From NCBI RefSeq assembly GCF_028292705.1, contig NZ_JAQGLV010000364.1, positions 1 to 34,293 of the forward strand: a stretch of DNA of 34,293 nt, in the 5' to 3' direction. The position numbers and the translations under genes were made by a program. Positions 5,726 through 34,293 of this stretch are shown in pieces (the stretch's first letter is position 1; each line of letters begins with the position of its first letter). The notes under the pieces are model-generated. The model did no database searches. It had not been told where the DNA came from and worked only from the letters and a program-made list of their open reading frames with translations. Source of the DNA: Collimonas fungivorans. GTDB taxonomy: Bacteria > Pseudomonadota > Gammaproteobacteria > Burkholderiales > Burkholderiaceae_D.

Positions 5726-6958
5726 TCAGCCGCCGGCGTTGCGTATTTTTGCAACCGCTGGCGAGCGCAGCCGGAAACCGTCCGGCATGCCCGCGCCCAG
5801 CAGCGGCTGCAGGTAAAGCCGGAAGGCATCGGTGACGTCGGTGCCGCTGGCGGCGATCAGCTCGTCTTCCATAACCCGGGTCTTGCCTGCCACCACATCC
5901 AGGTCCAGCAATTCATAGTTGACCGCGTAGTTGATCGAATAAGCGCCGCTGCGCTTGATGGCGACGGTGCCGTTGCGCTTGCCGTGGATGGCAAACTGCA
6001 GCGCTTTTTCACCGACTTCGCGCGCTTCGCGCTGGTCCACATCCGAGACGCAACCCATGAACGAGCGCTGCAGGTAACCGAAGGTATCGCCGCGCACGCG
6101 CTTGATGTTCAGTTTCGATTTGATCTCTTCGCACAGCAGGTCAGCCAGGGCGCCGTTGCCGGACAGCTGCACGTTGCCATGGTCGTCGCGCTCCACCGTC
6201 TTCGCCAGCAGGCTGGCGATAGGCGTGCCGGATGCATCGTGTATGCCTTCCGATACGGCGATCACGCAGCGGCCGAAACGCTGGTAGGCCTGCTTCACAT
6301 CGGCCAGGAAATTTTCCAGCACAAAGACCCGTTCCGGCAGGTAGATCAGGTGCGGACCGTCATCGGCAAATTTCCTGCCCAGTGCTGAGGCCGCCGTCAG
6401 GAAGCCGGCATGCCGGCCCATCACCACGCCGACATAGACGCCGGGCAGGGCGGCGTTGTCCAGGTTGGCGCCGGCAAACGCCTGCGCCACGAAGCGCGCG
6501 GCCGACGGGAAGCCCGGCGTGTGATCGTTGCTGACCAGATCGTTGTCGATGGTCTTCGGGATATGGATGCAGCGCAGGGGGAAGGCCAGCTTTTCCGCTT
6601 CCAGGCTGAGGATGCGCAGGGTGTCGGATGAGTCGTTGCCGCCTATGTAGAAGAAGTGGTTGATCTGGTGCGCCTGCAGCACCTGGATGATCTCCTGGCA
6701 ATACTTGAGGTCGGGTTTGTCGCGCGTCGATCCCAGCGCGGAAGACGGGGTGTTGGCCACCAGCTCCAGGTTGGCGCCGGTTTCCTGGCCGAGGTCGAGG
6801 AAGTCTTCGTTGACGATGCCGCGCACGCCGTTGCGGGCGCCGTACACCAGGTCGACATCGGACACGCCGCGCGCCGCCAGCACTACTCCCACCAGGGACT
6901 GATTGATGACGGCGGTCGGGCCGCCGCCTTGCGCGATAAGGATTCTTCGGGGGTGCAT
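5726..6958 (-). CDS. phosphofructokinase, probably pyrophosphate-dependent
   Basis: A 410-residue PfkA-superfamily enzyme that phosphorylates fructose 6-phosphate. GGGPTAVIN (11-19), GGND (106-109), PKTIDND (134-140) and MGRHAG (180-185) are visible. In ATP-dependent enzymes the first motif reads GGDG and the second PGTIDND; the Asp at position 109 and the Lys in PKTIDND are features of PPi-dependent enzymes, which act reversibly. The first Asp of GGDD is Asn here. The ATG at 6958 has a strong AGGAGG eight bases upstream; the frame is open farther upstream but this start fits the family. It lies 79 bases downstream of the sugar-binding-protein gene on the same strand. Confidence 0.85.
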   Translation of the reverse strand: MHPRRILIAQGGGPTAVINQSLVGVVLAARGVSDVDLVYGARNGVRGIVNEDFLDLGQETGANLELVANTPSSALGSTRDKPDLKYCQEIIQVLQAHQINHFFYIGGNDSSDTLRILSLEAEKLAFPLRCIHIPKTIDNDLVSNDHTPGFPSAARFVAQAFAGANLDNAALPGVYVGVVMGRHAGFLTAASALGRKFADDGPHLIYLPERVFVLENFLADVKQAYQRFGRCVIAVSEGIHDASGTPIASLLAKTVERDDHGNVQLSGNGALADLLCEEIKSKLNIKRVRGDTFGYLQRSFMGCVSDVDQREAREVGEKALQFAIHGKRNGTVAIKRSGAYSINYAVNYELLDLDVVAGKTRVMEDELIAASGTDVTDAFRLYLQPLLGAGMPDGFRLRSPAVAKIRNAGG

Positions 6959-7037
6959 GGGATTCCTCCTTGAGCCATCGTTGAATGGAGCTGTCTGCTC
7001 GATTCTACCTCCATCGCGCGGGCGCCGGCCAATCGCT

Positions 7038-8144
7038 TTATTTGCCCCAGATTTTCTTGTACTCGTTGCGGTAGCCGTTATTCGGTTCAAAGGTATTTTG
7101 CTGGCCGCCGTGGAACGCAATGTTCTGTTCAGTCACCAGGTAGACCGGGGTGGTATAGGCGCTGGCTTGTTCACCGGAAAATGAGCGGTTCAATTCATCG
7201 ACGATTTGCCACCCTTGCAGGCTGAACGGCTCCGGCACCGTGGCGAGCTGGACCGTTTTGCTGCGGATGCGCTGGTAGGCCGATTCGGAACCTTCGCCGG
7301 CAGACAGTGCTTCGATCTTGTTGCTGGCGATGATCGCGGCCGCGGCCGGCGTCGCCAGCAGGTCAAGGTAGTTGTCGTTGACGCCGATGATGTGCGTCCA
7401 TTTCTTGCCGAAGCGCTGCGCCAGCGCAGTCAGCAGCGCCGGCATCTTGTCGGCCGTGGTAGTGGCCGGCAATGCTTCTACGCTGAGCAGGGTGCAGCTG
7501 CGGCACTGCTTGACCACCGCCGCCACTTCATTCGATTTCGACTGGGCGTACAGGCTGTTGGGATCGGTGAAGACGACTACCCCGGCCTTGCCGTTGGAAT
7601 TGACTACGCCGAGCAAGGTCGCGATGGTCGCCTCTTCCTTGGGATCGGCGGTAACGTTGGTAAATAAACCGTCGCTCGGGCCTATCCTGGTGGAGGCGTG
7701 CCAGCCGACCACCGGCACGCTCTGGGCGTGGGAAGCATTCATTTCCTTGGGCTGTTCGTTGGCGTCGATCCCGGCCAGGACGATGCCGTTTGGCTTCAGC
7801 GCCAGCGCCCGGCTGAAAGCTTCCGCGTGTTTGCTGTTGACGCCCCAGCAATCGATCACGAACACGTCCCAGCCGGCCACCGCCGCCGCTTCCTTGACGC
7901 CGTTGGCGACGCGCAGCACGCTGTTGTTCTTCAGGTTCGAGGCGATCAGCACGATCGATTTTTTCTGCGCTGCGATTTTGGGGCCGCTGGTGGGGCCGTC
8001 CCAGCTGGTTTTGAAGGCCATCGCCTTGGCGATCTTGGCATTGGCGCGGTTCAGGAACAAGGTCGGATCTTCCTGTGCGAAGGCGGAACTGATAAGGCCG
8101 AAGACAAGTGCTACCGTTACGAAATTAAAATGTGTCAATTTCAT
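7038..8144 (-). CDS. periplasmic sugar-binding-type protein (type 1 PBP/LacI-like fold)
   Basis: A 368-residue exported protein with a signal peptide ending SSAFA before QED (about residue 23). The body (KKSIVLIASNLKNNSVLRVANGVKEAA, then DPNSLYAQSKSNEV and HIIGVNDNYLD) resembles the ribose/xylose-type substrate-binding domains of ABC importers or of periplasmic sensors. No permease or ATPase gene accompanies it, so it is an orphan here; it could feed a transporter encoded elsewhere or a sensor. The phosphofructokinase gene follows on the same strand after 79 bases. The ligand is unknown. The ATG at 8144 has only a weak ribosome-binding site. Confidence 0.8.
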   Translation of the reverse strand: MKLTHFNFVTVALVFGLISSAFAQEDPTLFLNRANAKIAKAMAFKTSWDGPTSGPKIAAQKKSIVLIASNLKNNSVLRVANGVKEAAAVAGWDVFVIDCWGVNSKHAEAFSRALALKPNGIVLAGIDANEQPKEMNASHAQSVPVVGWHASTRIGPSDGLFTNVTADPKEEATIATLLGVVNSNGKAGVVVFTDPNSLYAQSKSNEVAAVVKQCRSCTLLSVEALPATTTADKMPALLTALAQRFGKKWTHIIGVNDNYLDLLATPAAAAIIASNKIEALSAGEGSESAYQRIRSKTVQLATVPEPFSLQGWQIVDELNRSFSGEQASAYTTPVYLVTEQNIAFHGGQQNTFEPNNGYRNEYKKIWGK

Positions 8145-8538
8145 TATTTTTATCCGGATTTGACTGCGTATGGTCGGAGCGGATTTCCCGCCTGTCTTTT
8201 TTATTGCAAACTATTCGTTGCAGACTACTCCCTGTATTGCAAAATACACACATCTCCCTGAGCCAGTACTGACGCCGCTTTCAAGCAAAACAACGAACAA
8301 AAAAGCGGCGCCGGCGATAGCGTGCCTTAGCTTACGCAAAGGTTAAATAATTGTCTATTGGAAATCGGTGCCGGAATCGGCGACAGGCTTTATTTTTTTG
8401 AAGCGCCTGGAATTTCAAGCATTTCGGCGGCAAGGCAGGGGCAATTTGTCGCGAGGGATGATAAATAAACAAAAGGGCTGCCCGTCGCGATGACGGGCAG
8501 CCCTTTATCGATTGCAGCGATGCCGGCTGATTGCCGTG
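8145..8538. other. intergenic region, AT-richer, with one terminator
   Basis: About 390 bases between two minus-strand genes. The part next to 8145 should hold the promoter of the binding-protein gene; AT-rich stretches are present (around 8200-8245 and 8340-8360) but no convincing -35/-10 pair was found. The other end holds the strong hairpin at 8472-8506. No gene or RNA could be supported here. Confidence 0.5.
8472..8506 (-). terminator. strong intrinsic terminator of the GspE-type gene
   Basis: A perfect 15-bp stem (8472-8486 with 8492-8506) and a 5-base loop lies just past the stop of the GspE-type gene. Read on the minus strand, the stem is followed by TTTTGTTTATTT, a good U-rich tail. 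Confidence 0.9.
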
Positions 8539-10398: not shown

Positions 10399-11235
10399 TT
10401 ACTGCGGCGAATGCCAGGCCTTCAGGCCGTTGACCCAGGACTTGGCGGGCAGCTTGGTGGCGGCGGTGATTTCGGCGGCGCGCTCATAGAGGGCGCTGAA
10501 ATCGACCGGCGGCGCCTTCTTGAAAGCGATGGCGATCACATTGCCTTCGTGGACTTCCGGCAGGCACCAGACATCGTCGAAGGCAAACATCATGGCTTTC
10601 AGGTTTTTGGCATAGCTGGGGTGGTCGCCGAACAGGTTGACGGTCATGACGCCATAGTCCGTCAGGCAGGCGGCGCAAGCGCTGTAGAACTCGGGCGTGT
10701 CCAGCACCGGGCCGCGCGCGGTGGCGTCGTACAGGTCAACCTGGAGGGCGTCGATGCTGCCGTGGTTGAGCGGGTCCATGACAAAATCCATGGCGTCCAT
10801 CTCGAGCACCGACAGCCGCTCGTCGTCGGGCGGCAGCTTGAACATGGAGGAGCAAATCGCCAGCACCGAGGGGTTCAGTTCAATCGCGGTGACGCGCGCG
10901 GCGGGAAACTGGCGGTAGCTGAACTTGGTCAGCGCCGCGGTGCCCAGGCCCAGCTGCACGATGTGCTGCGGTTCCGGGTTGAACAGCATCCAGGCCATCA
11001 TCTGCTGCGCGTATTCGAGTTCCGGCCAGTCCGGCTTGCGCAGCCGCATGGCGCCTTGCACCCACTCGGTGCCGAAATGCAGGAAGCGCACGCCGTCCTG
11101 TTCGGACAGTGTGACCGGGGCAAACTTGGGTTTGCGCGGCGGTTTTGGTGTGTCTTTTTTTGCAACTTCGGAGCGTTTGCGCGGGCCGTCCATGCGGTTG
11201 GCGTCGGCTTCTATGGATTTGCGTTTGATCAGCAT
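10399..11235 (-). CDS. spermidine-synthase-fold protein (class I methyltransferase-like)
   Basis: A protein of about 278 residues of the spermine/spermidine synthase-like family. The nucleotide-binding region HIVQLGLGTAALTKF, the acidic strand end VTAIELNP, and a DLYDATARGP segment equivalent to the DxxDPxGP catalytic loop are visible. The first 45 residues are basic and low in complexity. Bona fide spermidine synthases bind putrescine and decarboxylated SAM; these betaproteobacterial homologues are shorter and diverged, so polyamine synthesis should not be assumed. The ATG at 11235 is chosen over a TTG at 11328, but no clear ribosome-binding site supports either. It is likely co-transcribed with the downstream GspE-type gene. 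Confidence 0.75.
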   Translation of the reverse strand: MLIKRKSIEADANRMDGPRKRSEVAKKDTPKPPRKPKFAPVTLSEQDGVRFLHFGTEWVQGAMRLRKPDWPELEYAQQMMAWMLFNPEPQHIVQLGLGTAALTKFSYRQFPAARVTAIELNPSVLAICSSMFKLPPDDERLSVLEMDAMDFVMDPLNHGSIDALQVDLYDATARGPVLDTPEFYSACAACLTDYGVMTVNLFGDHPSYAKNLKAMMFAFDDVWCLPEVHEGNVIAIAFKKAPPVDFSALYERAAEITAATKLPAKSWVNGLKAWHSPQ

Positions 11236-26902: not shown

Positions 26903-28126
26903 ATGACACAAGACATCACTACCCAGGCTGGCGCTCCCGGCTTCTACGGCCACCTGCGCGACGAGCTGGCCGGGATCCAGGCCGCCGGCCTGCTGAAAAG
27001 CGAGCGCCTGATCCTTGGCCCGCAGGGCGGCAAGATCAATACCGCCAATGGCGAATTGATCAACCTGTGCGCCAACAACTACCTCGGATTGTCTTCGCAC
27101 CCGGCCTTGATCAAGGCCGCCCACGCCGCTCTGGACAGCCATGGTTTCGGCCTGAGTTCGGTGCGTTTCATCTGCGGCACGCAAGATATCCATCGCGAAC
27201 TGGAACAGCGCCTGGCGCAGTTCCTCGGCACCGAAGACTGCATCCTGTACGCTGCGGCGTTCGACGCCAACGGCGGCCTGTTCGAGCCCTTGCTGGGCGA
27301 GCAGGACGCAATCATCAGTGATGCGCTCAACCACGCTTCGATCATCGACGGCGTCCGCCTGTGCAAGGCGAAACGCTACCGTTACGCCCACAACGACATG
27401 GAAGACCTGGAGCGCTGCCTGAAGCAGGCCAAGGCCGACAACGCTCGTTTCTCGATGGTGTTTACCGACGGCGTGTTTTCGATGGACGGCACCGTGGCGC
27501 AGCTCGATGTGATCCGCCAGCTGTGCGACAAATACGGCGCCTTGCTTGGCGTCGACGACTGCCACGCCACCGGTTTCATGGGTGCGCGCGGACGCGGCAC
27601 GCATGAAGCGCGCGGCATCTTCGGCAAGGTCGATGTGATTACCGGCACCCTCGGCAAAGCCTTGGGCGGCGCCAGCGGTGGCTTCACCGCCGGCCGGCGC
27701 GAAGTGATCGACCTGCTGCGGCAACGCTCCAGGCCATACCTGTTTTCGAACACCCTGATGCCGGCGATCGTCGGCGCTTCGATCGAGGCGCTCAACCTGC
27801 TGGAAGCATCCACCGAACTGCGTGACCGCCTGGAACGCAACACCGTCTATTTCCGCAAAGCCATCACGGAAGCCGGTTTCGAGATCAAGCCGGGGACCCA
27901 CCCGATCGTGCCGCTGATGGTATACGACGCCGTGGTCGCGCAAAACCTGTCGCGCCGCCTGTATGAGCTGGGCGTCTACGCGGTCGGTTTCTTCTATCCG
28001 GTGGTGCCGCAAGGACAGGCGCGGATCCGGGTGCAGATGTCGGCGGTGCATGACGAAGCAACATTGCAGCGTGCCGTGGGCATTTTCCGGCAAGCCGGCG
28101 AAGAGCTGGGCCTGGTGAAGAACTGA
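26903..28126 (+). CDS. kbl: 2-amino-3-ketobutyrate CoA ligase (glycine C-acetyltransferase)
   Basis: A 407-residue PLP enzyme of the alpha-oxoamine synthase family. It cleaves 2-amino-3-ketobutyrate with CoA to glycine and acetyl-CoA, the second step of threonine breakdown. [26 protein letters not shown] (His145), [11 protein letters not shown] (Asp218) and the PLP lysine in [14 protein letters not shown] (Lys252) are visible. Length and sequence fit KBL rather than BioF or ALA synthase, and the tdh-type gene 24 bases downstream supports this. GAGG lies six bases upstream of the ATG. Probably controlled by the divergent XRE-cupin regulator. Confidence 0.95.
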
Positions 28127-28150
28127 AGAGCAGAATTGAAGAGACAAGCG

Positions 28151-29113
28151 ATGAAAAAAATATTGGTAATCGGCGCTAACGGCCAGATCGGCACCGAACT
28201 GACGACCGCACTGGTCAAGCTGCATGGCGCAAAACAGGTTGTCGCGAGCGATATACAAGCGCTGGGCCGGCACCAGGAACTGGCCTACGAAAAACTGGAC
28301 GTGACCGATGCCAAACACTTGGCCGAGGTAGTGCAGCAACACGATATCGGTGAAATCTATCACCTGGCGGCCGCCTTGTCGGCCAAAGGCGAAGAGCATC
28401 CGGAGTGGGCCTGGAACTTGAACATGACCGGCTTGCTGAATGTGCTGGAAGTGGCGCGCCAGGCCAAGCTGTCGAAAGTGTTCTGGCCCAGCTCGATCGC
28501 CGCTTTCGGCCCGTCGACTCCGCGCGACAATGCGCCGCAGGTCGGCGCCATGGATCCGAAGACCGTCTATGGCATTTCCAAGCTGGCGGGCGAGCACTGG
28601 TGCAGCTGGTATGCGGAAAAATACGGCATGGATATTCGCAGCCTGCGTTATCCTGGCCTGATCAGCTATTCCGCCGAACCCGGCGGCGGCACCACCGACT
28701 ATGCGATCCAGGCCTTGTTCGCTGCTGCGGCGGGCGACGATTACACCAGTTTCCTGGATGTCGACAGCACGCTGCCGATGATGTACATGCCGGACGCCGT
28801 GCGCGCTACCATCGAATTGATGAGCGCGCCGAAGGAACAGCTGAAAGTGGCCGGTTCCTACAACCTGGCGGCGTGGAGTTTTTCGCCGCGCGAGCTGGTG
28901 GCTATCATCAGGCAGCATTACCCATCGTTCAGCATCACGTACCAGCCGGATTTCCGCCAGGCGATCGCCGATGCATGGCCGCGCTCGATCGACGATTCCA
29001 AGGCGCGCGAAGAGTGGTCCTGGTCTCCCGCATACAGCCTGGCCGACATGGTCGACGACATGCTGGCGCACCTTGCCGCGCGCAAATCGGCAATTCAAGA
29101 ACAGGTGGCCTGA
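28151..29113 (+). CDS. tdh: NAD-dependent L-threonine dehydrogenase, epimerase (extended SDR) type
   Basis: A 320-residue extended short-chain dehydrogenase. The NAD motif GANGQIG (about residues 8-14), YHLAAALSAKGE, WPSSIAAFGP and the catalytic YGISK are visible, and RYPGLISYSAEPGGGTTDYA is characteristic of the UDP-galactose-epimerase-like threonine dehydrogenases, not the zinc-dependent E. coli Tdh. It oxidises threonine to 2-amino-3-ketobutyrate, the substrate of Kbl encoded just upstream. The ATG at 28151 is preferred; a TTG lies 15 bases upstream. The same symbol is used for an unrelated enzyme family. Confidence 0.92.
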   Translation: MKKILVIGANGQIGTELTTALVKLHGAKQVVASDIQALGRHQELAYEKLDVTDAKHLAEVVQQHDIGEIYHLAAALSAKGEEHPEWAWNLNMTGLLNVLEVARQAKLSKVFWPSSIAAFGPSTPRDNAPQVGAMDPKTVYGISKLAGEHWCSWYAEKYGMDIRSLRYPGLISYSAEPGGGTTDYAIQALFAAAAGDDYTSFLDVDSTLPMMYMPDAVRATIELMSAPKEQLKVAGSYNLAAWSFSPRELVAIIRQHYPSFSITYQPDFRQAIADAWPRSIDDSKAREEWSWSPAYSLADMVDDMLAHLAARKSAIQEQVA

Positions 29114-29158: not shown

Positions 29159-29569
29159 TTATGAGAACGGATTCAGCAGGCGCACCCCTGTGCCGAGAAA
29201 ATCATTGGTGTTGCGGGTGACGATCGTGAGTCCGTGGATCAAGCCAATGGCGGCAATCTGCTTGTCGATCGGATGCTGATTGCTGGGTGACATCAGCTTG
29301 CCCCAAACCTGGGCGCAATCCTCATCGAAAGCCAGGATGCGGTCAGCATATCCGGCGACAAGAATATCCAGCCATCGCTCTAACGCCTTGGCTTGCACCG
29401 TATCTCCGCGGTTCTTGATGATCTCGACGCCGCGGCGGATTTCACCTATCGTCTGCACTGAGAGGTAGAGCGAATCCGGATCGACAGACTGCCAGAATTC
29501 CCTGGCTCCCCGGTTTGCTTTTTTTCCTTTACGTGCTTCGCTGATCACGTTCGTGTCGACCAGATACAT
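29159..29569 (-). CDS. PIN-domain toxin, FitB/VapC type
   Basis: A 136-residue PIN-domain ribonuclease-type toxin. The four acidic residues of the active site appear in order: Asp5 (YLVDTNV), Glu43 (QTIGEIRRG), Asp102 (PIDKQIAA) and Asp123 (TRNTNDF). The segment ISEARKGKKANRGAREFW is typical of the FitB branch. It starts three bases after the stop of the antitoxin gene, so the pair is translationally coupled. VapC-type toxins cleave tRNA or rRNA; FitB's RNA target is not established. Confidence 0.92.
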   Translation of the reverse strand: MYLVDTNVISEARKGKKANRGAREFWQSVDPDSLYLSVQTIGEIRRGVEIIKNRGDTVQAKALERWLDILVAGYADRILAFDEDCAQVWGKLMSPSNQHPIDKQIAAIGLIHGLTIVTRNTNDFLGTGVRLLNPFS

Positions 29570-29572
29570 GCT

Positions 29573-29791
29573 TTATTCCTGAATATCGCGCGAATTGAAA
29601 TCCGCATCTTCGCCGGCATTCGGCATGCTAGACAACACTTCCGCAAGCGATTGCCGCTTCGGACGCTGCAATGCGGCTCGCAGAATTTCCCTATGCTCGG
29701 CTTCAGCGCTGCGGCCGTGGGATGCCGCGAGCTGCTTGAGGGCCAAGGCTACATCTTCCTCTACATTTCTGACCACCAGATTTGTTGCCAT
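29573..29791 (-). CDS. ribbon-helix-helix antitoxin, FitA-like
   Basis: A 72-residue antitoxin. NLVVRNVEEDVALALKQLA forms the DNA-binding beta strand and first helix, and GRSAEAEHREILRAAL is the FitA-type second helix. The C-terminal tail (SMPNAGEDADFNSRDIQE) would bind and block the PIN toxin. AGGAAAC lies just upstream of the ATG. An 18-bp perfect inverted repeat begins 17 bases upstream of the start, the expected place for autoregulation by the antitoxin-toxin complex. Confidence 0.92.
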   Translation of the reverse strand: MATNLVVRNVEEDVALALKQLAASHGRSAEAEHREILRAALQRPKRQSLAEVLSSMPNAGEDADFNSRDIQE

Positions 29792-30024: not shown

Positions 30025-30912
30025 CTATTTTTCCAGCGCCTTGATTTGAGTGCTCAGTTTTTCCGGCACCGGATAACCTGGGTAGGCTTGGTTGAATTTT
30101 TCCCATTCGTCCAGGGCATCCCGGCGCAATCCCGCCTTGATCATTTCCTCGATCACCGATAACCAGGCTTCGGCCTTGGTGCTTGCCTCGGGTTTGGCCG
30201 GAGCGACGACTGGCGCCGGCACAGAGGGCTCCGGCGCGGCGGCAACCTTCGGTACAGGGATGACTATCGCCCTGACGCGTGAATCGGGCGTTTCCTTGCG
30301 CGCAAGCTGCTCTGGCGCCGCCGCATAATTTTGACGGGTTGCAGTTTCAGCGGCGCCAAGTTGCGGATTTGAATCCGCAACGCCGGCTTCGGCTTTGGCT
30401 TGAGCAGGCGCGGATGCCGCAGGCGGTGGTTCCTGCCTGGCGGGTTTGGGCCGAGCCGGTTGCGGCGCCGTGCGCTGCTTGCCTGCTGCAGGAGGCGGTG
30501 GAGCGGCGGCAGGTGCAGCCGGCGGCGGGGCTTCTGCCTGCGGCGCTTGCGCAACTTGCTCCGGCTGTTCGATTTTTCTCGCTGGTTCAGCAGGCTCCAC
30601 TACCGGCTCGTTCTGCCAGCGCAACGTCACCAGGGTAGCCAGCACCACGCTGGCGGCCAGCGCCAGTTGCGTGTTCCAGCGCCAGCGCGGTTTCCCGGGT
30701 TTGCCTGTCTTGGGCGGCGGAGCGTCGTTGGCGGCCTCGCGCACTGGGACCGCAGCCGCGGTCAGGGCTTCTGCCTGCGCCAGTATTGCTGCATCCAAAT
30801 CCGCCGAGGGCGAGGGCTGCGGCAATCTTCGCAGTTTGCGCGCCAGGTCGCCTTGGCCTTGCAGGAATGCCTCGAATTCGGCGTCGTCGTGCTTGTTGTC
30901 TTCGGCAGTCAT
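30025..30912 (-). CDS. proline/alanine-rich single-pass membrane protein, putative anti-sigma factor
   Basis: A 295-residue protein. An acidic cytoplasmic N terminus of about 80 residues is followed by one membrane segment (about residues 80-98, LALAASVVLATLVTL) and a long periplasmic Pro/Ala/Gln-rich region (about 104-175). The C-terminal 50 residues (AWLSVIEEMIKAGLRRDALDEWEKFNQAYP) look like a TPR-type helical pair. Its ATG overlaps the sigma factor stop (ATGA), the classic layout of a sigma/anti-sigma pair. No zinc-type HxxxCxxC anti-sigma motif is seen, so the role rests on context. Confidence 0.7.
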   Translation of the reverse strand: MTAEDNKHDDAEFEAFLQGQGDLARKLRRLPQPSPSADLDAAILAQAEALTAAAVPVREAANDAPPPKTGKPGKPRWRWNTQLALAASVVLATLVTLRWQNEPVVEPAEPARKIEQPEQVAQAPQAEAPPPAAPAAAPPPPAAGKQRTAPQPARPKPARQEPPPAASAPAQAKAEAGVADSNPQLGAAETATRQNYAAAPEQLARKETPDSRVRAIVIPVPKVAAAPEPSVPAPVVAPAKPEASTKAEAWLSVIEEMIKAGLRRDALDEWEKFNQAYPGYPVPEKLSTQIKALEK

Positions 30913-31508
30913 ACCGCCTCCTCATTGGAAGTCAGGTCCGGCACCAGGTGCTGGCGCAGTTTGCGCATCGCATAGCGCAAGCGGCTCTTGACGGTTTCTA
31001 CCGGCACAGCGGCAATCTGCGCGATTTCTCCTAGGCTCATGTCGTTGAATTGCTGCAAAATCAGGGCCTCTTTCTGTTCGCCGGGCAAGCTGCGTATCGC
31101 CGCGTGCAGCTCGGCGATACGCTGCCTGTGTTCCAGCGCGGCTTCGGGCGACATTGCTTCCTGGGCGGCGTCGGCCAAATAGTCGAATTCCGCTCCGGCT
31201 TCATCTGCGGCGCCGATATCACTGCTCAGCAACACCTGGTGCTGGCGCAGCAGGTCGACCAAGCGGTTGCGCGCAATCTGGAACAGGTAAGTGCGGAAAC
31301 TCGATTCCGGCTGGTAGCGGGCGCGTGCGTGATGCACGCCGGCCCAGGCATCCTGCGCGATTTCATCGACCCAGTCGCGGCGCGGCGAGCGCCATGCAAT
31401 GAAACGATACAAGCCGCGGCTGTGGCGCCGGTACAGTTCCTTGAACGCGCCGAGGTCGCCGTCACGGTACTTGAGCATCAGCGTTTCATCGGAAAGTTCG
31501 GCGTACAT
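30909..31508 (-). CDS. ECF-type RNA polymerase sigma factor
   Basis: A 199-residue sigma-70 family protein. Region 2 covers FKELYRRHSRGLYRFI to SFRTYLFQIARNRLVDLLRQ, and region 4 covers LPGEQKEALILQQFNDMSLGEIAQIAAVPVETVKSRLRYAMRKLR with its helix-turn-helix. The ATG at 31508 (MYAELSDETLM) fits family length, though no good ribosome-binding site precedes it; a TTG at 31583 is a longer alternative. It is coupled to the downstream membrane protein gene and divergent from a VIT/vWA gene, which is a likely target. Confidence 0.9.
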   Translation of the reverse strand: MYAELSDETLMLKYRDGDLGAFKELYRRHSRGLYRFIAWRSPRRDWVDEIAQDAWAGVHHARARYQPESSFRTYLFQIARNRLVDLLRQHQVLLSSDIGAADEAGAEFDYLADAAQEAMSPEAALEHRQRIAELHAAIRSLPGEQKEALILQQFNDMSLGEIAQIAAVPVETVKSRLRYAMRKLRQHLVPDLTSNEEAV

Positions 31509-31645
31509 GGCGGCTTGTTGTTGTGATTCTTTGTACTGTCGGGTGATAGCGGCGATTGTGAGCGCAGCCGTGCAAGAATGCAACAGCCGGATGCAGCGGC
31601 ATTTTTTTTTACGCCGCCATCAATTTATTTAACCCCGTTTGTGAA

Positions 31646-31673
31646 CCTGGCTCGTTTCATATGACAAGCCAGG
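31646..31673. repeat. inverted repeat CCTGGCT-N14-AGCCAGG
   Basis: Seven-base perfect arms (31646-31652, 31667-31673) flank a 14-base spacer holding CATATG, 24 bases before the VIT/vWA start codon. It overlaps a possible ECF-type -35 element (GTGAAC at 31641-31646). It may be an operator or a leader hairpin. Confidence 0.4.
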
Positions 31674-31697
31674 GTATCGGCACTAACGGAGAATAAA

Positions 31698-34293
31698 ATG
31701 TTACGACGCTTGCTTGGCGCTTTATCCATGCTGGTCCTTCTGCTTCCCGCAGCGCAAGCGAAATCGATCGTGCGCCCGCCGCCGCTGATAGTGGCCGGCG
31801 GTGAACAGCCGATTGTGCTGCAAAGCCTGCACATCGACGGAGAAATCAGCGGCGGCCTGGCCCAGACCACGGTCCGGATGGTGTTTTTCAACCCCAACCA
31901 GCGGCCGCTCGAGGGACAGTTGCAGTTTCCCTTGCTGGACGGCCAGCAGATCACGGCGTTTGCCCTGGATATCGAAGGCAAACTGCGGCCTGCGGTGCCG
32001 GTGGAGAAAGCCAAGGGCCGCCAGGTATTCGAAGCGATCGAGCGGCGCCGGGTCGATCCCGGCTTGCTGGAAACCACGCAAGGCAACAATTTCCGCTTGC
32101 GCATCTTCCCGATTCCCGCCAACGGCAGCCGCACTGTAGAGATCAAGTACATGGAAGCGCTGTCGCGCCAGGGAAAACACTGGGTGTACAACTTGCCGCT
32201 GGCCTATGACGATCGGGTGCGCGACTTCGACCTGAACCTGGCGGTACATGGCGCCAGCGCCGCGCCGCAAGCCGGCGGCGCACTAGGTTCAGTCACGTTT
32301 ACACAGGCCGGCGAGCAGTACCAGGCGCATATAGTCAAAAGCCGGTTCGCCGCCAGCGGCGTGCTCAATATGCTGGTTCCTGCCAGCGACAAGCCGCAGA
32401 CCTATCTCCAGCTGCGCGACGACCAGACCTGGTTTGTCACCGAAATACCGGTGACCGAGACACGTACGGCGCGCAGCCTGCCGAAGGTGATCGGCTTGCT
32501 GTGGGACAGTTCGGGTTCCGGCGCGGCGCGCGATCACGATTCCGAATTTGCCGTGCTCGACCGCTACTTCAAAACTGCCGGCAACGCAGAGATACGTCTG
32601 ACACGGCTGCGCGACAGGCCGGAAGCCAGCGCCTGGTTCCGTGTCGTCAACGGCGACTGGAGCGCGCTGCGCCAGGCCTTGCAAAACATCGCGTACGATG
32701 GCGCCAGCGCTCTTGGCGATTGGCGGCCGCAGGCCGACGTCGGCGAATATCTGCTGGTCAGCGACGGCTTGAGCAATTACGGCAGCGCGCCTTTCCCCAA
32801 GCTGGGCGCCGGCCAGCGGCTGTATGTGCTGAACGCCGCGCTGACGGCGGACAGCGCCCAGCTCGCTGCCTGGGCTGAAAACACCGGCGGTCGCCTGCTG
32901 CAGGTGTCGCCGCAACTGGTGGCAGCGGCGGCGCAAGCCTTGCTGACCGAGTCGACCCATATAGATGCCCTGAACGCGGTTGGCGCTACCGACCTGCAAG
33001 TCGAATCGCATGAGGTGGCCAACGGCGTCATCCGCGTGGCGGGCCGCCTGCGCGGCGCCGATGCGCAACTGACGCTCAGCCTGCGACAAGGCGGCCGCCA
33101 GCAGATCAAGACCGTGCCGGTCTCCGCCACCGCGCCAGCTCATCCGCTGGCGGCTTATTTGTGGGCGGGATATCGCTTGCGCGAACTGGCGGCCGACCAG
33201 GACCTGCATCGCGCCGAAATCCGCCGCATCGGCCAGCAGTTCGGCCTGGCGACGCGCGAGACTTCGCTGATCGTGCTGGAGCGCCTGGACGACTATGTAC
33301 GCTATGACGTTGCTCCGCCGGAGGAATACCAGGTCGCATTCAAGCAATTGAAAGCACTGCGCGAGTCGGATATCAGGCAAGCGCGCGATAAGCATCTGGA
33401 AACCGTGATTGAACAATTCCAGCGCAAGGCCGCATGGTGGGAGAAAGATTTCCCTAAAGGCGCCGCGCCGCAATCCAAGCCGCAGGTGCCGGGCCGGCTC
33501 CGATACATAGAACGGCCGGACATCGATGCTGCCGCACCGGTGATGCAAGCACCGTCTGCTCCGGCTCCCGCTGTCAGCGCCCGGCAGAATTTTGAAGCGG
33601 GTTCGAATTATTCGGCAAAATCCAAGGCGGATTCGGATATCGTTTCGACTGCGCCCGAGATCAGGATGGCGCTGAAAAAATGGAGTGCGACAGCGCCATA
33701 TATCGATCGTCTCAAATCGGCCACGCCGGAAACCGTGTACGCCATCTACCTCGACGAAAAGCCCGGCTACGCGAACAGCAGCGCTTTCTTCCTCGACGCC
33801 GCCGATATCCTGCTGGAGAAAGGGCAGCGCGACCTGGCGTTGCGTGTGTTGTCCAACCTGGCCGAGATGGACCTGGAAAACCGCGCCGTACTGCGCATAC
33901 TGGGCTACCGCCTGCTGCAAGCCGGCGCGCCGGAATTGGCGATACCGGTGTTCGAGAAGGTCAGGCGGCTGGCCGAAGAAGAGCCGCAATCGTTCCGCGA
34001 TCTGGGGCTGGCGTATGCCGCCAACAAGCAGTACCAGCAAGCCATCGACCAGCTGTACGAAGTGGTGCTGCGCCCTTGGGACGCCCGTTTCCCGGAAATC
34101 GAGACCATCGTGCTGGCAGAATTGAACGCGATTGTCGCCACCTCCGGCGTGTCGCTCGACACCAGTCGTATCGATCCGCGCCTGCTGAAGAACATGCCGC
34201 TCGATTTGCGCGTGATCATGACCTGGGATGCGGACAATGCCGACATGGATTTGTGGGTCACTGATCCGAACGGTGAAAAATGCTACTACGGTC
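31698..34293 (+). CDS. secreted VIT/vWA/TPR/DUF2135 protein (3' end outside window)
   Basis: At least 865 residues, open to the window edge. A signal peptide ends PAAQA before KS (about residue 21). A VIT domain follows (about 30-155: VRMVFFNPNQRPLEGQLQFPL, KAKGRQVFEAIERRRVDPGLLE). Then comes a vWA-like region (about 262-430) whose first strand carries a MIDAS-type DxSxS motif (Asp270, Ser272, Ser274). TPR-like helices (about 690-800: LRVLSNLAEMDLENRAVLRILGYRLL) precede the start of a DUF2135-like domain (MTWDADNADMDLWVTDPNGE). GGAGAA lies just upstream of the ATG. Similar proteins are inter-alpha-trypsin-inhibitor-like envelope proteins of unknown role. It is divergent from the ECF sigma gene. 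Confidence 0.88.
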   Translation, partial: MLRRLLGALSMLVLLLPAAQAKSIVRPPPLIVAGGEQPIVLQSLHIDGEISGGLAQTTVRMVFFNPNQRPLEGQLQFPLLDGQQITAFALDIEGKLRPAVPVEKAKGRQVFEAIERRRVDPGLLETTQGNNFRLRIFPIPANGSRTVEIKYMEALSRQGKHWVYNLPLAYDDRVRDFDLNLAVHGASAAPQAGGALGSVTFTQAGEQYQAHIVKSRFAASGVLNMLVPASDKPQTYLQLRDDQTWFVTEIPVTETRTARSLPKVIGLLWDSSGSGAARDHDSEFAVLDRYFKTAGNAEIRLTRLRDRPEASAWFRVVNGDWSALRQALQNIAYDGASALGDWRPQADVGEYLLVSDGLSNYGSAPFPKLGAGQRLYVLNAALTADSAQLAAWAENTGGRLLQVSPQLVAAAAQALLTESTHIDALNAVGATDLQVESHEVANGVIRVAGRLRGADAQLTLSLRQGGRQQIKTVPVSATAPAHPLAAYLWAGYRLRELAADQDLHRAEIRRIGQQFGLATRETSLIVLERLDDYVRYDVAPPEEYQVAFKQLKALRESDIRQARDKHLETVIEQFQRKAAWWEKDFPKGAAPQSKPQVPGRLRYIERPDIDAAAPVMQAPSAPAPAVSARQNFEAGSNYSAKSKADSDIVSTAPEIRMALKKWSATAPYIDRLKSATPETVYAIYLDEKPGYANSSAFFLDAADILLEKGQRDLALRVLSNLAEMDLENRAVLRILGYRLLQAGAPELAIPVFEKVRRLAEEEPQSFRDLGLAYAANKQYQQAIDQLYEVVLRPWDARFPEIETIVLAELNAIVATSGVSLDTSRIDPRLLKNMPLDLRVIMTWDADNADMDLWVTDPNGEKCYYG

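Follow-up and report, generated by a model that had tools for sequence, protein, structure and literature searches.

We analyzed a stretch of 34,293 nt (hereafter the window), contig NZ_JAQGLV010000364.1 of the incomplete Collimonas fungivorans genome assembly GCF_028292705.1, which carries a gene for an extracytoplasmic function (ECF) sigma factor, an overlapping gene for a putative membrane anti-sigma factor, and a gene for a large VIT/vWA/TPR protein. It is likely that these genes form an ECF switch that is held by its anti-sigma factor, has nearly a single target, uses the VIT protein as its output, and has had this output exchanged in evolution. The membrane protein would hold the sigma factor, and an envelope signal, probably received via the periplasmic TPR-like end that it carries on a long Ala/Pro-rich linker, would free it. 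The freed sigma factor would then direct RNA polymerase to TTTAACCCC-N16-CGTTT, a promoter that in this genus would drive essentially one gene, that of the VIT/vWA/TPR/DUF2135 protein. The same switch would since have become attached to beta-propeller genes, an alpha-2-macroglobulin operon, and YfbK-type vWA genes with the same promoter.

The sigma pair occupies positions 30025-31508 of the reverse strand. The sigma factor (199 amino acids, with ATG 31508 as its likely start) is encoded at 30909-31508 and the membrane protein (295 amino acids) at 30025-30912. Their stop and start codons overlap as ATGA at 30909-30912, as a first-pass annotation of the letters had already pointed out, and in 91 of 98 related loci the sigma gene likewise stops within an ATGA. 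The VIT gene runs on the forward strand from 31698 to 34292, where it is cut by the contig end. That annotation had described the genes as facing each other; those of the window are in fact divergent, and a convergent order is found in 37 of the 46 linked genomes described below.

Alignment of the intergenic regions of six genomes of the same genus revealed a block of conserved sequence ahead of the VIT gene. In the window, the candidate ECF-type promoter lies at 31628-31657 on the forward strand and consists of TTTAACCCC (31628-31636), 16 bases, and CGTTT (31653-31657), the motif beginning 67 bases before the VIT ATG. Two elements at this spacing and distance from the ATG have the geometry of an ECF promoter, and AAC/CGT elements are widespread among such promoters. 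When all sources were combined, the motif AACC-N18-CGT, in practice AACCC(C/T)-N16-CGTT, was present in 40 of 62 distinct VIT upstream regions, and six of the remaining 22 (four loci of Duganella type and two of Rugamonas) have, by eye, close variants with the same spacing. We then took a census of 98 sigma loci from 97 sigma-carrying genomes, together with the separately placed VIT genes of three of them, using the motif [AG]ACCC[CT]-N16-CG[TA] within 420 bases upstream; four regions shorter than 150 bases (one sigma, two preceding alpha-2-macroglobulin, and one VIT) were dropped. At the 16-base spacing, the motif precedes 48/49 VIT genes, 31/32 beta-propeller genes, 5/5 genes that stand before alpha-2-macroglobulin or VWA_4, and 1/2 YfbK-type genes, and it precedes 12/757 other genes of the same loci. 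Spacings other than 16 (range 8 to 26) gave 0-4 matches in any class. The VIT part of the census overlaps the set used for motif discovery, in which the beta-propeller and alpha-2-macroglobulin genes played no part; many rows are close relatives, and the counted VIT gene of genome G285 has in-frame stops.

Genome-wide scans bear on the size of the regulon. G003 (one contig) and G005 each have a single occurrence of the strict motif AACCCC-N16-CGTTT, at the VIT promoter, and the remaining four genomes of the genus with the sigma gene have one to three each; the sole strict match in G013 is a site other than that of the VIT gene, where this genome has AACCCT. Perfect TTTAACCCC-N16-CGTT was found zero to two times in each of 12 genomes of other genera, eight times in total; by coordinates seven of these matches sit at a partner promoter, and the eighth is in G203. 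A scan that allowed two mismatches was uninformative, with no more matches than the backward control in most of 15 genomes. The motif was also seen before genes for DUF4349 lipoproteins (G253, G050, and G122), DUF4139 proteins (G253 and G050), and a pair of similar small proteins that have a Cys-containing motif (G253), the loci concerned being L188, L189, L190, L191, and L192. A near-identical string, (A/G)TTAACCCCTGC(A/G)ATACGTGCCATTCGTT, recurs in seven of the 12 genomes (G282, G371, G404, G249, G203, G228, and G360) and also in G450, G455, and G459, which lack a sigma match; it probably lies inside a conserved gene unrelated to this sigma factor.

A search for neighborhood conservation, proposed in the first-pass annotation, showed that the trio is conserved together. 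Among 392 Oxalobacteraceae genomes (thresholds of E<=1e-60 for VIT and E<=1e-40 for sigma), the VIT gene is present in 58, the sigma gene in 97, and both in 50, a co-occurrence whose Fisher p of 1e-27 ignores phylogeny. The two genes lie within 12 kb of each other in 46 of these 50 genomes, and further apart or on other contigs in four. Four layouts were observed in the 46: the pair is downstream and convergent in 37, divergent in six, upstream on the same strand in two, and downstream on the same strand in one. Within the genus, six of the 15 genomes searched (G000 included) carry the VIT gene, and the pair adjoins it divergently in all six. Inherited synteny as the sole cause was rejected because the linkage is kept across the four layouts and the motif persists where the linkage is lost, being retained at unlinked VIT genes in G015 (one contig, with the sigma gene 4 Mb away) and in G182 and G255 (draft genomes, other contigs). 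Among the loci of our genome collection that were found through the VIT protein, a sigma match is nearby in 7/29 and was not seen in 22/29, within flanks of at most 6 kb per side and often less.

The same sigma pair also stands beside other genes. Its neighbor in loci without VIT is a PF09826 beta-propeller protein (32 loci), an alpha-2-macroglobulin operon (six), a YfbK-type vWA protein (two), or a VWA_4 protein (one), as assigned by Pfam on one or two members per kind and by tblastn for the remainder. In beta-propeller and alpha-2-macroglobulin loci, the sigma gene lies downstream of the partner gene in the same orientation, and the two may be cotranscribed. Four loci (G021, G030, G057, and G195) have no recognized neighbor; in G030 another contig ends in a motif-bearing VIT fragment, and in G223 the motif precedes a YfbK-type lipoprotein gene elsewhere in the genome. 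AcrB near the sigma gene of G253 and an M13 peptidase in G050 were dropped as partners, the motif being absent there and the motif-bearing genes lying elsewhere in those genomes. On the sigma tree, nine partner labels ('none' and the outgroup included) require 13 changes, the minimum possible being 8 and the shuffled mean 45; therefore, partner exchange is real but infrequent. The alpha-2-macroglobulin type forms one supported clade, and the YfbK type of G383 nests with the VIT type of G228 (support 100/96). To judge from these sequences, one sigma pair most likely exchanged its output protein during evolution, which would make it a natural case of a sigma factor whose target has been replaced and whose promoter code has stayed. 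A bolder reading, which we offer tentatively and would not yet favor, is that of an exchangeable-output module, in which a nearly invariant promoter code and sigma pair are connected, lineage by lineage, to giant envelope proteins that lack homology but are equivalent in function (VIT/vWA, alpha-2-macroglobulin, beta-propeller, and YfbK-like vWA), so that evolution would swap the output and keep the sensor and promoter code. If the partners were interchangeable outputs in this way, the signal found for one would tell the purpose of all.

The VIT protein begins with an N-terminal signal peptide recognized by eye and is apparently exported. It contains a VIT domain (residues 41-151, positions 31818-32150; PF08487, 2e-24), a vWA domain at about residues 262-416 (32481-32945; identified from the AlphaFold model and Foldseek, with no vWA domain score from Pfam), and TPR helices (residues 667-815, 33696-34142; TPR_16, 5e-8, also supported by AlphaFold and PDB TPR matches). 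The metal ion-dependent adhesion site (MIDAS) of the vWA domain reads DSSGS (32505-32519), and its residues D270/S272/S274 are invariant in 24 aligned sequences. A VIT domain followed by a vWA domain with MIDAS DxSxS marks it as an inter-alpha-inhibitor heavy-chain-like protein, and its model matches heavy chain 1 over 580 columns (Foldseek E 9e-23). Thus, it resembles the inter-alpha-trypsin inhibitor heavy chains of animal blood (PDB 6fpy and 9c4f) in VIT and vWA with MIDAS; it differs from them in its ~13% identity, its C-terminal half of TPR and, in full-length homologs, DUF2135, its bacterial origin, and its apparent export. The VIT and vWA parts of the label VIT/vWA/DUF2135 given in the first pass hold for the window. 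DUF2135 (PF09906) was seen only in full-length homologs, at 882-929 in L002 and 967-1014 in L017 (2/2 scanned), and is absent from the window, whose truncated gene ends before the position that the domain has in these homologs. Readings as TIGR03788, MamA, or other NCBIfam families were rejected, all being far under their cut-offs; for TIGR03788, a marine proteobacterial sortase target protein that also has a VIT domain, the score is 43 against a cut-off of 552.

The first pass had left open whether this protein is a sensor or an output. As a sensor or co-regulator it would touch the membrane protein to free the sigma factor, its own gene being a feedback target, and the tight sigma-VIT linkage, the intact MIDAS, and the TPR-like helices in both proteins would suit such contact. 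These helices, also noted in the first pass, are significant in the VIT protein; the TPR matches of the membrane protein are not (best E 0.69). The sensor role is nevertheless unlikely because the sigma pair persists beside unrelated partners and conservation of the membrane protein's C-terminus is similar whichever partner class is involved; moreover, the VIT gene of G015 has kept its motif at 4 Mb from the sigma gene. The output role is the part that stands, supported by an ECF-type promoter that is conserved and whose presence follows that of the sigma factor. The C-terminal consensus WL.kId.lLKAg....AleEW..FR.AYPdYPVp is common to the partner classes, which argues that the membrane protein does not sense its partner, and the mean identity of this end is 0.37 between VIT-type and beta-propeller-type loci and 0.41 within VIT-type loci. 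A common envelope signal is likelier than sensing of the partner.

The membrane protein consists of short N-terminal helices, one transmembrane helix, a long Ala/Pro-rich linker, and a TPR-like C-terminal module. In the AlphaFold model, helices 10-17, 22-28, and 37-61 are of low to medium confidence, helix 78-100 (30613-30681, hydrophobic by eye) reads as transmembrane, residues 102-239 are Ala/Pro-rich and of low confidence, and residues 242-294 (30031-30189; blocks of 81-97 in pLDDT, the AlphaFold confidence score) form a confident three-helix end that in structural comparison comes closest to TPR domains, though below significance. Pfam and NCBIfam gave no match at E<=1, and the Hx3Cx2C zinc motif of class I anti-sigma factors is absent, the protein having no cysteine, in agreement with the first-pass remark that it carries no known anti-sigma motif. 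A search of the PDB with the membrane-protein alignment gave a dihydrolipoyllysine succinyltransferase as the sole weak match (E 0.004), which was set aside as shared Ala/Pro-rich composition. Relatives share the N-terminal consensus; 79/93 full-length proteins satisfy a loose C-terminal pattern, and 76/93 have a hydrophobic span above a simple cut. This comparison was built on automatic open reading frame (ORF) calls with lengths of 158 to 774, because of which some protein ends may be misread.

The class I anti-sigma domain has helices 1-3 as a bundle and helix 4 on sigma region 2. The present pair resembles ECF systems with membrane-bound class I anti-sigma factors (PMC7406223, seen in part) in its two-domain sigma factor, overlapping partner with a single transmembrane helix, cytosolic N-terminal helices, and extracytoplasmic C-terminal domain. 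It is unlike them in lacking Hx3Cx2C and any family match, in its Ala/Pro linker that ends in a TPR-like module, and in carrying the motif before the output gene, with none before the sigma gene in 95/97 loci. The two exceptions are G021 and G057, and canonical autoregulation of the sigma operon was thus rejected. From this anatomy, the membrane protein is probably an anti-sigma factor without the zinc motif that would bind the sigma factor. It could instead be a second effector, the sigma factor being controlled by transcription or proteolysis. The missing family matches and zinc motif and the uncertain N-terminal model leave room for this, but the stop/start overlap in 91 of 98 loci, the common N-terminal consensus, and the presence of an overlapping partner even in distant, unlinked pairs make it rather improbable.

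The sigma factor itself contains Sigma70_r2 (8e-14) and Sigma70_r4_2 (6e-12), with region 3 absent by Pfam, and passes as ECF in the sigma70-ECF superfamily model (109 bits, cut-off 43). It falls below the equivalog cut-off of NF009166 (PRK12513; 191.5 bits vs 206), and an ECF42-type sigma factor was rejected since the protein ends with region 4 and a TPR match is absent. In a class-wide search of 369 genomes, nine matched besides G000 at E<=1e-34, with 39-47% identity. A weak, possible sigma70-type promoter of the sigma operon (TTGCAT-N17-CACAAT, 31555-31583, reverse strand) was read by eye, and a stretch that looks similar stands in the six same-genus intergenic regions; an alternative TTG start at 31583 overlaps its possible -35 element.

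The motif tracks this sigma factor. Among VIT genes of the family, it precedes 48/49 in genomes with the sigma gene vs 2/8 in genomes without a detected one (Fisher p 5e-6, phylogeny ignored), the two being those of G023, an 80%-complete genome, and G199 (Rugamonas rubra, L030). In the latter (5911-8181 and 10416-11090), an internal part of the sigma gene and the middle of the VIT gene are missing, the motif remains, and both genes are in apparent joint decay. Nine further beta-proteobacterial loci (L006, L007, L008, L010-L013, L023, and L026) have a motif-bearing VIT gene and an unlinked sigma gene or none, and a sigma match (E<=1e-20) exists elsewhere in eight of these nine genomes. Seven of the eight distant sigma factors have an overlapping partner with the same kind of C-terminus, and the eighth is cut by the end of the DNA. 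Of 12 genomes with a motif-less VIT gene (L015, L018, L025, and L029 also belong to the eight sigma-less family genomes; L021 was left out for its short upstream DNA), eight lack a sigma match and four have a sigma factor whose partner lacks that C-terminus by eye. An ECF promoter read by another ECF sigma factor, with the linked one hitchhiking, would be compatible with the many sigma candidates per genome in our first search and with how common AAC/CGT elements are; we regard it as improbable, given the tracking just described and a linkage that survives rearrangement. That the motif is bound by an ordinary transcription activator, or is some other kind of DNA element, would agree with conservation being its only measured property, but is very improbable in view of two elements exactly 16 bases apart in ECF geometry.

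Several observations weigh against the proposed switch. The motif was originally recognized within a subset of the VIT genes, and it is missing at G429 (VIT), G284 (beta-propeller), and G021b (YfbK). The p-values ignore phylogeny because the relatives are non-independent. The distant sigma factors of the eight genomes are only 37-43% identical, and L023 has a motif-bearing VIT gene and yielded zero sigma matches. Among full-length membrane proteins, 14/93 fail the C-terminal pattern and 17/93 the hydrophobicity cut. Eight genomes of the genus that lack the sigma gene have zero to two strict matches each, a number near that of the backward control (0-3). With one mismatch allowed, each genome gives one to seven matches, mostly at or below the backward control, and weaker sites are thus indistinguishable from chance. 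Finally, the regulon is not always one gene because G253 and G050 carry other motif genes; judging by the motif, it is wider in some lineages.

A precise promoter and a candidate regulator can now be proposed for bacterial VIT/vWA proteins, for whose function our literature searches gave no account, and the shared switch would link these proteins with bacterial alpha-2-macroglobulins. Literature searches for a link between ECF and VIT returned nothing relevant; they did not cover the main ECF re-classification, where the group may have a number. In the available text of two ECF reviews, the terms von Willebrand, vWA, VIT, and DUF2135 (PMC8103513) and Willebrand, vWA, macroglobulin, and propeller (PMC8999054) are absent. 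A parallel is the mag operon of Pseudomonas aeruginosa (PMC5764988, seen in part), which likewise encodes large envelope proteins; an alpha-2-macroglobulin gene adjoins the same sigma pair in six of our loci. The window differs in its VIT/vWA partner, and the accessible portion of that paper describes mag with RsmA-linked control and does not mention an ECF sigma factor. The P. aeruginosa alpha-2-macroglobulin relative is reported there to trap a protease and to guard the periplasm. By analogy, from its heavy-chain likeness and its alternation with alpha-2-macroglobulin, we speculate that the VIT protein may protect the envelope.

Some further VIT relatives were encountered. Four records of the plasmid collection contain one, and L207 and L212 (G194 and G213) have two adjacent VIT matches beside the sigma pair, one of them partial in G194. 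L007, L008, L010, and L011 come from metagenome bins titled Bordetella parapertussis, with VIT genes 47-48% identical to that of the window, much as in bins titled only Betaproteobacteria; the species label looks doubtful. Next to the sigma pair in the window, a PIN-domain protein (Pfam PIN, 1e-10; NCBIfam VapC-like match below cut-off) is encoded at 29159-29569 on the reverse strand and is preceded by a 72-residue ORF at 29573-29791 on the same strand. The two are a likely VapBC toxin-antitoxin pair, and relatives of both occupy the corresponding place in G003 and G005. Two ORFs at 26903-29113 on the forward strand are presumably a glycine C-acetyltransferase (kbl) and an NAD-dependent epimerase/threonine dehydrogenase.

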